This document shows positions 20,614 through 25,288 of a DNA stretch of 48,305 bases, in pieces (the first letter of the stretch is position 1; the number at the start of each line of letters is the position of its first letter). The translations under genes were made by a program, and so were the position numbers. This DNA is from Pleurocapsa sp. CCALA 161 (lineage in GTDB: Bacteria > Cyanobacteriota > Cyanobacteriia > Cyanobacteriales > Xenococcaceae), in contig NZ_PVWF01000031.1 of the NCBI RefSeq assembly GCF_003003995.1, positions 1-48,305 of the forward strand. The letters run 5' to 3'. The notes beneath the pieces are model-generated. The model made no database searches. It was not told the DNA's origin and saw nothing but the letters and a program-made list of their open reading frames with translations.

Positions 20614-21342
20614 TCATTGAAAGTCTTCTGGTTTTATTGTTTGATTAATTAACAAAACCGAAAAATAGGATAAATCTAGTTGGGGATAGTTGCGGAGATC
20701 GCGATAGATCTTTTGTTCAGGGAAAGTAGCCTTTTCTACGATCGCACTAGATGCCAATAAATTTCTTTGCTTAAGGATCTGCCACACTTGGGAATAAACA
20801 GAATTCACCTTGAGTAGTACCACAACTTCTGCCCAGTTTAAGGCTGTTTCTAATTCTTGAACCGAATACAAAGCTGGTAAAACTGCCATGCGCTGCTGAT
20901 TTACGGTTAGGGGAATTCCCAATACCGAAGCGATCGCCATGGGCGAACAAACTCCAGGAACAGTCTCAATAGTCACTTGAGGATGAGATTTACTTAAAGT
21001 TTGTGCTAAATAGGTAAAAGTCCCATAAAAATTGACGTCCCCTAAACAAGCAAAAGCGATCTTCTTGCCGAGGGTTAGTTCTTGTCCAACTTGCTGTGCG
21101 GCTTTTGACCAAGCTGTTTTGAGTTTTAATTCGTCTTGAACATAAGGAAATTCTAGGGGCAAGATCTGCTGATGTGGCTGAAGCCATGATTTAACGATGT
21201 TTTGAGCGGTTCCCCAACGATTATTTACTCCTGCGGGAAAGGCAACAATATCGCTCGATTGTAGGATACGCAATCCTTTAACAGTAATCAATTCAGGATC
21301 GCCTGTGCCGACACTTATGCCGTATAAAATGCCTGGTTTCAC
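20614..21342 (-). CDS. cobI: Precorrin-2 C20-methyltransferase
   Basis: CobI/CbiL methylates C-20 of (cobalt-)precorrin-2 in cobalamin synthesis, using S-adenosylmethionine. The 242 residues carry the SUMT-family motifs: ISVGTGDPELITVKGLRIL at 9-27, FACLGDVNFYGTFTYL, and VPGVCSPMAIASVLGIPL, with the variable C-terminal part of the family. The length is normal for CobI. The start is the ATG giving MKPGILYGISVGTGD. No other cobalamin gene is adjacent, as is usual in cyanobacteria where these genes are scattered, and I see no B12-box riboswitch in the 400 bp upstream. Confidence 0.92.
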   Translation of the reverse strand: MKPGILYGISVGTGDPELITVKGLRILQSSDIVAFPAGVNNRWGTAQNIVKSWLQPHQQILPLEFPYVQDELKLKTAWSKAAQQVGQELTLGKKIAFACLGDVNFYGTFTYLAQTLSKSHPQVTIETVPGVCSPMAIASVLGIPLTVNQQRMAVLPALYSVQELETALNWAEVVVLLKVNSVYSQVWQILKQRNLLASSAIVEKATFPEQKIYRDLRNYPQLDLSYFSVLLINQTIKPEDFQ

Positions 21343-21756
21343 TCTCTAAAAGTTCGCTTGATAATATTTCAGCCAATCCTTACCATAGCGCTAGTTTGCT
21401 CATCTGTGCAGAAGCAAAATTATAGATGTTACCCCAATTATGTCCGTGATCAATCAATTGCCGATTCCTGATTCACCTAAAGCTCAAAAGCGATCGCTGT
21501 ACTCAACTCAATACAGGGTGTAGATTCTACCGTTAGCATGCCCGATCAACGTGGCAGTCAACAAGATCTGTTTATTCTGTTTTCTGTTTAAAGGCAATTA
21601 AAATTTTCCCTCTTTAAATTTAAATATTGTATTGCTCACTTTTTAGTTTATTATGACTATAGTGTAATATCAATTAAAATAACTCAACGATAGCTTTTAA
21701 TCTATCTCAAACTTAAACAAGATATTTAACCTGTGTAATTCAATCTGTGTAATTCA
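21343..21756. other. Intergenic region with a tandem 14-bp repeat
   Basis: Nothing convincing is encoded here. At its right end, CTGTGTAATTCAAT occurs twice in tandem (21731-21744 and 21745-21758), overlapping the start codon of the next small gene. One HIP1 site is near 21490. Confidence 0.5.
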
Positions 21757-21969
21757 ATGGCGCACTGCATTTTATTTCTTTTAGGATTAGCAATACTTTG
21801 GGTTGCCAGCAAGACTACTGATGAAGTTCATCAAATAGCTTTAGCAGCAGCTGCTATTCTTCCCTTGAGTTGGGGATATTTTTCTACCCCATCTTTATGG
21901 CAGTGTTTAGGCGGCATCATCATTGCTTGCGCCTACGAAATTTATATTTCTTTTCTTATAGTTGAGTAA
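21757..21969 (+). CDS. Small membrane protein (70 aa), hypothetical
   Basis: Two or three predicted membrane helices in 70 residues (CILFLLGLAILWVAS; IALAAAAILPLSWGYF; CLGGIIIACAYEIYISFLIV). Composition and codon pattern look coding, but no ribosome-binding site is present; the start codon lies inside a tandem duplication of CTGTGTAATTCAAT. It lies upstream of the bicA remnant and the nhaS3-sbtAB cluster. I do not recognise the family. Confidence 0.55.
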   Translation: MAHCILFLLGLAILWVASKTTDEVHQIALAAAAILPLSWGYFSTPSLWQCLGGIIIACAYEIYISFLIVE

Positions 21970-22083
21970 GATCTATGATTTTGTTCGTTAACATAGTTTA
22001 TATTCTCTTGTCAAGATTCAAAGCTTAAAATAAGCTAAAAACATAGTAAAATTCCTGAATACGACCTTTGAAACTAGATAACA

Positions 22084-22182
22084 ATGACAATCACCAACAA
22101 AATACATTTTAGAAATGTAAAAGGAGATATCTTCGGCGGTGTTACCGCAGCAGTTATAGCTCTAAACGATCTGATAATTTAA
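22084..22182 (+). pseudogene. bicA: bicA remnant (first ~27 codons of a SulP bicarbonate transporter)
   Basis: The ATG at 22084 opens a 32-codon frame: MTITNKIHFRNVKGDIFGG, then VTAAVIAL, then five unrelated residues and a stop. From memory, the cyanobacterial BicA family starts almost identically (ITNKIHFRN..GD.FGG.TAAVIALPMAL). The match ends exactly where the first membrane helix should continue, so about 500 codons have been deleted. In other cyanobacteria bicA, a low-affinity high-flux sodium/bicarbonate symporter, is often followed by a sodium/proton antiporter gene; here the antiporter gene follows 69 bp after the scar. The start region, and perhaps the old bicA promoter, thus now sits in front of nhaS3. 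Confidence 0.75.
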
Positions 22183-22251
22183 AGCTGTTAGCTTGAACGG
22201 CCAAAAGCTGATAGCCAGATTTAATCTTCCTCTAACAAGTAAAAAATAATT

Positions 22252-23652
22252 ATGATGCCTCTAGAATCAATATTTCATAGTCAATTAGGTTTCCCATTGT
22301 TGGCAACCGCATCCGATACTGAAGCTGCACCGATGGTTTTAGCAGGAGTTTTACTAAGTCTTGTCTTTATCTATCTAGCAAGTAAACTAGGGGGAGAACT
22401 TTCCCAATTAGTCAATTTACCGCCAGTATTAGGGGAATTAGTAGCAGGGGTAATAGTTGGGGTTTCTGCATTACATCTTTTAGTCTTTCCTGAAGCAGGT
22501 GCAATTGCTAGTGATTCGGTTGTAATTACCATTTTGCAAAAAATTGCTGGTTTAAACCCCGAAAGTATTGGCGAAGTCTTTGCTTCTCAAAGTGAAGTTA
22601 TTTCTGTTTTAGCCGAATTAGGGGTAATTATTCTCTTATTTGAAATCGGTTTAGAATCGGATTTAAGGGAATTACAAAAAGTCGGAGTCAGAGCAGCGAT
22701 CGTTGCAACAGTAGGTGTTGTCGCTCCCTTTGTAGCTGGTACGTTAGGATTGATTTTAATCTTTGGAATGCCGACAATTCCTGCGGTGTTTGCTGGTGCT
22801 GCATTAACTGCTACCAGTATTGGCATTACTTCTAAAGTATTATCGGAGTTAGGACAACTTAAATCTACAGAAGGTCAGATTATTGTTGGTGCTGCGGTAA
22901 TTGATGATGTTCTCGGTATTATTGTTCTGGCTGTAGTAGCCAGTTTGGCAAAAACTGGAGAAGTAGATATTGCTAACGTAATTTACTTAATTATTAGTGC
23001 GACAGCCTTCTTGTTAGGTTCGATTTTTTTGGGTCAATTCTTTAATAAAAGCTTTGTGGCGATCGCCGAAAAATTACAAACTAGAGGTAATTTAGTTATT
23101 CCTGCTTTAATATTTGCTTTCTCGATGGCCTTTTTAGCCCATGCAATTCATCTAGAAGCAATTTTAGGTGCTTTTGCTGCTGGTTTAGTCTTGGATGAAA
23201 CTGACAAACGCAAGGAATTAGACCAACAAATTATTCCCATTGCTGATATTTTAGTTCCCATTTTCTTTGTCTGTGTCGGTGCAAGAGTTGATCTTAGTGT
23301 GCTGAACCCCAGTAGTGCTGATAATCGTCAAGGATTAGTCATTGCCGCCTTTTTAATTGTGGTGGCAATCATTGGCAAGATTATCACTGGTTGGGCGGTT
23401 TTTGGCAAAGAAAAAGTCAATCGTTTGGCGATCGGGATTGGCATGATTCCCCGTGGGGAAGTTGGTTTAGTCTTTGCGGGTATTGGAGCAGCCAGTGGTG
23501 TTCTGGATAAACCATTACAGGCAGCCATTATCATTATGGTAATTCTAACGACCTTTATTGCACCACCTTTATTACGTTTCGCCTTTGGCTCAGAGGAAAC
23601 AGCAGCCCAAGAAGCCGTCAAAGAAGCGGATTTAGCTTCGACTAATAATTAA
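22252..23652 (+). CDS. nhaS3: Na+/H+ antiporter, NhaS3-type (CPA2)
   Basis: 466 residues with about 12 membrane helices and no C-terminal regulatory domain. The CPA2 signature Asp pair is at 218-219 (GAAVIDDVLGII), preceded by the unwound-helix region TATSIGITSKVL, with LEAILGAFAAGLVLDE further on. In Synechocystis the NhaS3 homologue is a thylakoid antiporter. Exporting sodium sustains sodium-driven bicarbonate uptake, which fits the sbtA gene 70 bp downstream. Two consecutive ATG codons are possible starts. Base composition is AT-rich (22 of 60 bases G+C at 23221-23280), like the rest of the window and unlike sbtAB. Confidence 0.88.
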   Translation: MMPLESIFHSQLGFPLLATASDTEAAPMVLAGVLLSLVFIYLASKLGGELSQLVNLPPVLGELVAGVIVGVSALHLLVFPEAGAIASDSVVITILQKIAGLNPESIGEVFASQSEVISVLAELGVIILLFEIGLESDLRELQKVGVRAAIVATVGVVAPFVAGTLGLILIFGMPTIPAVFAGAALTATSIGITSKVLSELGQLKSTEGQIIVGAAVIDDVLGIIVLAVVASLAKTGEVDIANVIYLIISATAFLLGSIFLGQFFNKSFVAIAEKLQTRGNLVIPALIFAFSMAFLAHAIHLEAILGAFAAGLVLDETDKRKELDQQIIPIADILVPIFFVCVGARVDLSVLNPSSADNRQGLVIAAFLIVVAIIGKIITGWAVFGKEKVNRLAIGIGMIPRGEVGLVFAGIGAASGVLDKPLQAAIIIMVILTTFIAPPLLRFAFGSEETAAQEAVKEADLASTNN

Positions 23653-23722: not shown

Positions 23723-24853
23723 GTGGATTTTGTTTCTCTTTTCGTGAAGGACTTTATTCTCCAGTTGCAGTCCCCAACACTCGCCTTTTTGATTGGTGGG
23801 ATGATCATTGCAGCTCTCGGTAGCGAATTGGTAATTCCAGAGTCGATTTGTACAATCATCGTCTTCATGCTACTCACCAAAATCGGTCTGACCGGTGGAA
23901 TTGCGATCCGCAATTCCAACCTGCTGGATATGGTGTTACCCATGCTCTCTGCTGTAGCAATAGGGATTATTGTTGTCTTCCTCGCTCGCTATACATTGGC
24001 GAAGCTGCCAAATGTCAAAGTCGTGGATGCGATCGCGACTGGGGGGTTGTTTGGTGCCGTGAGTGGCTCTACTATGGCTGCCGGGCTGACGGTACTGGAA
24101 GAACAAAACATCCAATACGAGGCATGGGCAGGCGCACTATATCCCTTCATGGATATCCCAGCCCTCGTCACTGCGATTGTTATAGCCAACATTTATCTTA
24201 ACAAGAAAAAGCGTAGTGCAGCAGCCCAATCTATCAAGCAGGAATCTCTCAGCAAGCAGTCCGTTGCGCTAGGTGGTTATCCCGATCAGCAGGATTATCC
24301 CAGCACTCGGCAGGAGTATCGCAGCCAGCAGCAAGATCCTGACGATAATAAGGTCAAGGTATGGCCGATTATTCAGGAAAGCCTCCAGGGTTCTGCTTTA
24401 TCGGCAATGTTGTTAGGTCTCGCTCTTGGCATACTCACAAAGCCAGAAACTGTCTATGAAGAATTCTACGATCCTGCCTTTAAAGGCTTGCTTTCGATCT
24501 TGATGCTGGTCATGGGTATAGAGGCTTGGTCAAGGCTTGGCGAACTGCGTAAGGTAGCCCAGTGGTACGTCGTGTATAGCGTGGTAGCACCGTTTTTGCA
24601 TGGGTGCATCGCCTTCGGTCTTGGGCTGATTGCCCACTACACTGTGGGATTCAGCATGGGCGGGGTCGTGATCCTGGCCGTCATCGCCGCCTCTAGTTCA
24701 GACATCTCAGGCCCACCCACGTTACGAGCTGGTATCCCGTCGGCAAACCCCTCCGCCTACATTGGTGCCTCCACAGCCGTCGGTACACCAATTGCGATCG
24801 GCATCTGTATACCGTTCTTCATCGGGCTAGCCCAGGCGATAGGCGGCATCTAA
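23723..24853 (+). CDS. sbtA: Sodium-dependent bicarbonate transporter SbtA
   Basis: SbtA is the high-affinity, low-flux sodium/bicarbonate symporter of the cyanobacterial CO2-concentrating mechanism, in the plasma membrane. The 376 residues have two five-helix halves around a hydrophilic loop (about 160-215). Family stretches include LTKIGLTGGIAIRNSN, GGLFGAVSGSTMAAGLT and AVIAASSSDISGPPTLRAGI. The start is a GTG preceded by a perfect AAGGAGGT at 23713-23720-equivalent spacing, so translation should be strong. The gene is visibly richer in G+C (37 of 60 bases at 24721-24780) than nhaS3 next door, which suggests recent transfer together with sbtB. It precedes its regulator sbtB. Confidence 0.96.
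   Translation: MDFVSLFVKDFILQLQSPTLAFLIGGMIIAALGSELVIPESICTIIVFMLLTKIGLTGGIAIRNSNLLDMVLPMLSAVAIGIIVVFLARYTLAKLPNVKVVDAIATGGLFGAVSGSTMAAGLTVLEEQNIQYEAWAGALYPFMDIPALVTAIVIANIYLNKKKRSAAAQSIKQESLSKQSVALGGYPDQQDYPSTRQEYRSQQQDPDDNKVKVWPIIQESLQGSALSAMLLGLALGILTKPETVYEEFYDPAFKGLLSILMLVMGIEAWSRLGELRKVAQWYVVYSVVAPFLHGCIAFGLGLIAHYTVGFSMGGVVILAVIAASSSDISGPPTLRAGIPSANPSAYIGASTAVGTPIAIGICIPFFIGLAQAIGGI

Positions 24854-24925: not shown

Positions 24926-25288
<363 letters not shown>

Follow-up and report, generated by a model that had tools for sequence, protein, structure and literature searches.

A genotype of Microcystis aeruginosa with sbtA and no or incomplete bicA was reportedly described by Sandrini et al. 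in 2014. The set of bicarbonate transporters that a strain carries helps decide cyanobacterial competition at low versus high CO2. The accessible text of PMC4840274 reports a Microcystis genotype of sbtA with no or incomplete bicA, and it places both genes in one operon in the strains that carry bicA and sbtA. Variable bicA and sbt genes, plus a partial bicA2, are noted in the available part of PMC9120777. Homology-facilitated illegitimate recombination, as set out in the accessible portion of PMC3240628, involves one homologous junction, one short-homology junction and the loss of recipient DNA. Among the open-licence papers that our literature searches listed, we saw no description of the scar reported here or of a recurrent pattern of bicA stubs.

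The scar lies in a stretch of 48,305 nucleotides from Pleurocapsa sp. CCALA 161 (the window), whose features are collected in Table 1. An earlier note had read a 32-residue frame (ATG at 22084, end at 22182) as the first 27 codons of a BicA-like transporter in front of an antiporter, SbtA and SbtB, and this observation of a bicA remnant is confirmed. In a profile search, residues 1 to 27 matched positions 1 to 27 of NF050096 (E 3.3e-10), and positions 1 to 27 of our own BicA HMM, built from 66 intact BicA sequences of which some come from one genome fetched twice, matched the stub as well (E 5.9e-11). The frame also matched PDB entry 6ki1 (E 1.7e-9), the sole PDB sequence at E <= 10, which we take to be the solved structure of BicA and whose file is titled "low affinity sulfate transporter"; a Pfam search with the 32 residues gave nothing at E <= 1. 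The stub scores 33.9 bits over positions 1 to 27 of 547, against a full-length criterion of 880 bits for NF050096. Residues 28 to 32 are not BicA and correspond to the leftover 3' end of bicA and the spacer read in another frame. The downstream genes proved to be what the note had called them. We call the antiporter nhaS3, following the name of the bicA-nhaS3 operon in the literature, and an nhaS3 match was present in 30 of the 30 genomes searched, that of the window included.

Table 1. Features of the bicA scar and its surroundings (positions in the window).
Feature	Position	Strand	Evidence
cobI, upstream neighbour of bicA in G012, G011 and G004	20614..21342	-	PF00590; NF004614 over cut-off; synteny
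ORF70, short conserved reading frame just 5' of bicA	21757..21969	+	55-82% identical ORF in G003, G012, G011, G010, G007, G004, G016
Retained bicA upstream region with ~11-nt insertion near 22019-22029	21973..22083	+	9-genome alignment
bicA 5' stub, codons 1-27, ATG intact	22084..22164	+	NF050096, 6ki1 and own-HMM matches
Stop and five non-BicA codons, product of the out-of-frame junction	22165..22182	+	Reading frame; alignment to bicA end
bicA 3' remnant, ~last three codons and original TAA at 22175-22177, in another frame	22165..22177	+	Alignment to G012 bicA end
Putative recombination tract, G012-like, with its right border at 22316-22335	22165..22335	+	Informative sites and identity
nhaS3-type CPA2 cation/proton antiporter	22252..23652	+	PF00999 7.8e-72
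sbtA, clade A	23723..24853	+	PF05982 1.3e-91; tree
sbtB, PII-like regulator	24956..25288	+	PF00543 1e-14

The order cobI(-), ORF70(+), bicA(+), nhaS3(+) is found in G012, G011 and G004, and ORF70-bicA-nhaS3 is present on the stretches fetched from G007, G010 and G016. By sequence comparison, G007 is Waterburya agarophytonicola KI4, G011 a Myxosarcina MAG, G004 LEGE 10410 and G003, which enters below, the MAG Hyellaceae CSU_1_1. The window has the order of these relatives with bicA cut out and sbtAB added 3' of nhaS3. A chance match is ruled out, since the location, the gene order and the flanking cobI and ORF70 all agree with the relatives that have an intact bicA; ORF70 itself (70 residues), which recurs in several genomes of the genus, had no Pfam match over the cut-off and no NCBIfam match. 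The sequence beyond codon 27 aligns with the end of the 572-codon bicA of G012 and then with its spacer to nhaS3, so that about 540 codons (~1.6 kb) were lost from the inside of the gene while both ends survive. The abrupt stop reported after codon 27 is only part of the picture, because both bicA ends flank one ~1.6-kb deletion. By eye, CTC is common to both sides of the junction (window GCTCTAAACGATC, G012 end CCTCAAGCGATC), and the left border is vague by a few codons since bicA also carries GCTCTAAC at codons 31-32. Two marks of a pseudogene are present, namely a fragment at the syntenic place of the intact gene and remains of the far end beyond the break. We are highly confident that a lost bicA left its scar at 22084-22177, in an account that includes an internal deletion and, possibly, recombination and the arrival of SbtAB. 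The ancestral order was cobI-ORF70-bicA-nhaS3, and the alignment shows that a single internal deletion of ~540 codons joined codon 27 (plus or minus a few) directly to the 3' end of bicA.

The claimed loss of bicA at its syntenic place stands: nhaS3 still adjoins, and a second BicA was looked for in the genome and not found. With the BicA model at E <= 0.001, the window genome (G000; 5.37 Mb, 249 contigs, 99.99% complete) returned only the stub and, from C201, a SulP protein of another kind (124.9 bits against the cut-off of 880). PF05982 matched two proteins, the SbtA of the window and a protein on C44 that is ~25% identical to it. CmpA is present, as a C120 protein matches 2i48 at 1.1e-226, and a protein on C17 fits NrtA better. 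Judged from this gene content, G000 keeps SbtA and probably BCT1 (the latter judged by CmpA) but not BicA, and its bicarbonate supply would now come from SbtA and a putative BCT1. The genome also has a second nhaS3 copy on C65 (L064:4383-5729), its protein 88% identical, beside a universal stress protein gene and with no bicA or sbtA match on the 12-kb stretch fetched.

An apparent deletion of this kind could also arise from a chimeric or collapsed contig in a strain that has a complete bicA. The 249 contigs, an estimated contamination of 2.13% and a 3' side of the scar that looks like another species would fit such an assembly artefact, yet we consider it very improbable: it would require two switches inside ~170 bp, the ~3 nt common to the two sides of the left junction (by eye) are too short for an assembler join, no other BicA fragment was found in the genome at E <= 0.001, and relatives have losses of their own. 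Somewhat less improbable, though still unlikely, is that the stub has been maintained as a small gene or leader, its 32-residue peptide or mRNA regulating nhaS3-sbtAB. The ATG and reading frame of the stub are intact, a 5' stub is retained in 10 of the 12 fragment loci among the best 80 of 491 nhaS3 loci (see below), and pN is 0.03-0.08 against a pS of 0.52-0.90 when the stub is compared with nine intact bicA genes, which makes past purifying selection on its sequence clear. A neutral stub would be expected, by rough estimate, to have gathered ~6 replacements on the G000 branch since the split from G003 (pS 0.15-0.22 between the two, five genes). Only 2-3 are seen against each of six relatives, and the stub is therefore either young or still constrained. 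At 10-17 of ~19 sites it differs synonymously from these six relatives, which differ from one another at 5-12, and this excess with few replacements could reflect remaining protein constraint. Stubs elsewhere, however, lose the start codon (Atlanticothrix, L122), lose the frame (G008) or vanish altogether, as in the sister G003, which makes a conserved peptide unlikely, and the Komarekiella stub (L125) has many replacements. Most likely, the 27-codon stub is non-functional and young.

Upstream of the stub, blocks conserved in the genus are kept in G000 and G003. These two, alone among nine aligned genomes, carry 11 inserted nucleotides between TTGTCA and CATAGT, and the insertion may predate the loss of bicA. 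A scan for sigma-70 consensus sites found 3 in this region against 2.7 expected, no excess, and a functional promoter called from that scan was dropped as unsupported. The suggestion that nhaS3 may now be under the control of the old bicA promoter remains plausible with the upstream region retained, but it need not describe new wiring: a bicA-nhaS3 operon is reported for Microcystis in the accessible part of PMC4419860, and by analogy nhaS3 probably used the bicA promoter already before bicA was lost.

The 3' side of the scar, together with the first ~65-85 bp of nhaS3, resembles G012 over a tract of ~155-170 bp, and most of the remaining nhaS3 is G003-like. Across 22171-22251 the window is 92% identical to G012 (72/78), compared with 72% between G012 and its sister G011 (57/79), and a 12-18-nt gap is common to the window and G012 against the others. 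Over its first 66 bases, nhaS3 is 92% identical to G012 and 56% to G003, and for the next 154 bases these values are 86% and 96%. Informative coding sites, G003-like versus G012-like, number 0 versus 26 in 22252-22330 and 28 versus 4 in 22331-22500. Further along nhaS3 the informative sites are 48 versus 3 (22501-22800) and 81 versus 11 (23201-23652), and upstream they are 69 versus 11 (21690-21972) and 20 versus 3 (21973-22083). Among the sites behind the script's p of 1.2e-26 are 18 non-coding ones at which G003 lacks true homology, and it is the coding sites that carry the point. By rpoB, G000 is 94.7% identical to G003 and 83.6% to G012, yet the tract is G012-like, so a piece must have passed between the G000 and G012 lines. 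Similarity to G003 also drops, to 86-88%, in a second nhaS3 stretch at 22801-23200 (30 versus 26 sites), and the nhaS3 of the window seems to be a mosaic.

Foreign bicA-nhaS3 DNA would have paired homologously in nhaS3 and been joined by microhomology at bicA codon 27. If the transfer went into G000, these two joins would together amount to a deletion in one step, and we infer that the recombination event may have made the deletion. Within the same overall explanation, the mechanism could instead have been a plain intragenic deletion without foreign DNA, the similarity being due to transfer from the G000 lineage to G012. The comparison of G012 with G011 fits either direction of exchange and so allows this as well, but the sister G003 has a different nhaS3 start, by eye like the form in G008, G010 and G004, and we rate the plain deletion a serious contender at somewhat below even chances.

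The loss in the window has counterparts among its relatives. An rpoB tree of 21 genomes pairs G000 with G003 as its sister and places G002 next (both splits 100/100), with G008 elsewhere at weak support. None of the four has an intact bicA at the locus, and the breaks differ. In G003, the whole bicA frame is gone and the upstream region is kept, and a full BicA, which shares 67% identity with its G012 counterpart, is encoded elsewhere, on C146. G008 keeps bicA codons 1-16 and 30-79 plus a piece of the end (by eye), frameshifted. The order in G002 is cobI-sbtA-sbtB-nhaS3, with no bicA detectable at the locus by tblastn or HMM; a remnant that we had seen by eye between cobI and sbtA (~residues 64-78) was dropped because both searches were negative. 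The best DNA alignment of this region to the G012 stretch exceeded 200 of 200 shuffles, but it lies upstream of bicA, outside the gene, and against five other relatives 10 to 63 of 200 shuffles scored as well. Because the breaks differ between genomes, these sequences argue for separate deletions, though an ancestor may already have carried a dead bicA that was shared.

A survey of 80 named nhaS3 loci, the best of 491 from one genome scan, was used to ask how bicA stands at this operon. By script, with bicA sought up to 4.5 kb upstream of nhaS3 in the same orientation, the gene was intact at 49 of the 80, in fragments at 12 (L102 among them, although its contig begins nearby), long but broken at five, absent at eight (including L119, which has an intact bicA upstream on the other strand, and L122, with a weak stub) and cut off by a contig end at six. 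The 5' end is kept in 10 of the 12 fragment loci and the 3' end in five. C-terminal or partial NF050096 matches in at least G003, G011, G012, G024 and G045 were not counted as scars. Where an sbtA more than 72% identical to that of the window lies within 5 kb, bicA was intact at 0 of 8 of these loci, against 49 of 66 otherwise, with a Fisher p of 7e-5 that ignores kinship among genomes that are not independent and is thus optimistic. Five of the surveyed loci (L118, L120, L133, L137 and L147) and, outside the 80, G037 (L206) have the order bicA stub, sbtA, sbtB, nhaS3. The window differs in that its sbtA sits behind nhaS3, so the statement that SbtA is carried at the spot of bicA does not hold for this genome. 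L125, L130 and L139 are window-like without sbtAB, a stub of 31-50 codons being followed by nhaS3. In L126:465-911, from a Phormidesmis MAG, bicA residues 1-35, 92-152 and 513-545 form one open 148-residue frame before nhaS3. The nhaS3-sbtAB contig of L121 looks cyanobacterial but belongs to a MAG labelled Candidatus Gracilibacteria, in which it was probably mis-binned.

A broken bicA at the operon goes with varied BicA content in the rest of the genome. Among the five fragment loci with sbtA in the best 80 of 491, only the genome of L120 has another near-full BicA (864 bits, below the cut-off). Another BicA over the cut-off is found in the genomes of L122, L125, L126, L130 and L139 and is absent in those of L112 and L132; G003, G036 and G037 likewise have one elsewhere in the genome. 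As judged from these sequences, bicA is broken repeatedly at the same operon in several cyanobacteria, often together with one SbtA clade, and the pattern merits a proper survey.

The clade in question emerged from a tree of 38 SbtA rows, 11 loci having been left out as repeats or partial copies, in which clades A and B split at 100/100. Clade A has 16 rows, two of them identical (L143 and G034, probably one genome counted twice), and contains the window, G002, G003, G008, G013, Nostocales and other lines. The 22 rows of clade B include seven same-genus relatives (G004, G006, G007, G009, G010, G011 and G012); G001, with no SbtA match, and G005, with fragments only, fall outside the tree. Since the window belongs to clade A and these seven to clade B, its SbtAB was probably acquired laterally and not inherited with the genus. 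The split into two SbtA clades, set against an rpoB tree that groups G000, G003 and G002, counts in favour of the overall account; the alternative to lateral acquisition is an old duplication followed by losses. Directly behind sbtB in G003 lies an nhaS3 3' fragment (L067:9295-9399). Across 86 bases it shares 88% identity with the nhaS3 located behind sbtB in G002, and this end fragment suggests that sbtAB came with its own nhaS3. The arrival of SbtAB by lateral transfer would have made BicA dispensable. Clade-A SbtA is not strictly tied to loss of bicA: G013 has it at another place and keeps an intact bicA-nhaS3. Clade-B sbtAB stands beside an intact bicA in G016 (directly behind bicA-nhaS3) and in L107. 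At the level of whole genomes, an association between clade-A SbtA and absence of BicA looked weak by eye, and we do not claim one.

Tentatively, and with more doubt than conviction, we suggest that bicA-nhaS3 is an exchange site, at which clade-A sbtAB moves between lineages and lands beside or inside bicA through recombination in nhaS3 or bicA, with bicA repeatedly lost and its upstream region and a 5' stub left behind. If so, a high-flux transporter would have given way to a high-affinity one within a single operon. The scar locates one loss of BicA, and the survey shows repeated loss at the same operon, often together with one SbtA clade, so that the reason why lineages trade flux for affinity becomes testable in comparisons of close relatives.

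The gene-loss scar is genuine, well supported and of an already known kind. Compared with BicA, the SulP-type bicarbonate transporter represented by NF050096 and 6ki1, the stub has the same genomic place and the same first 27 residues, but ~95% of the protein is absent and transporter function is impossible. Relative to homology-facilitated illegitimate recombination, as far as the accessible portion of PMC3240628 goes, the scar would be alike in both kinds of junction and in the loss of recipient DNA, but here it is a historical footprint only, compatible with either donor direction. To judge by the accessible text of PMC4840274, the window resembles the sbtA genotype of Microcystis aeruginosa in having sbtA and no intact bicA in the genome. 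It differs in belonging to another cyanobacterial lineage, in having ORF70 and a divergent cobI upstream where that genotype has ccmR2, and in carrying its sbtAB behind nhaS3.
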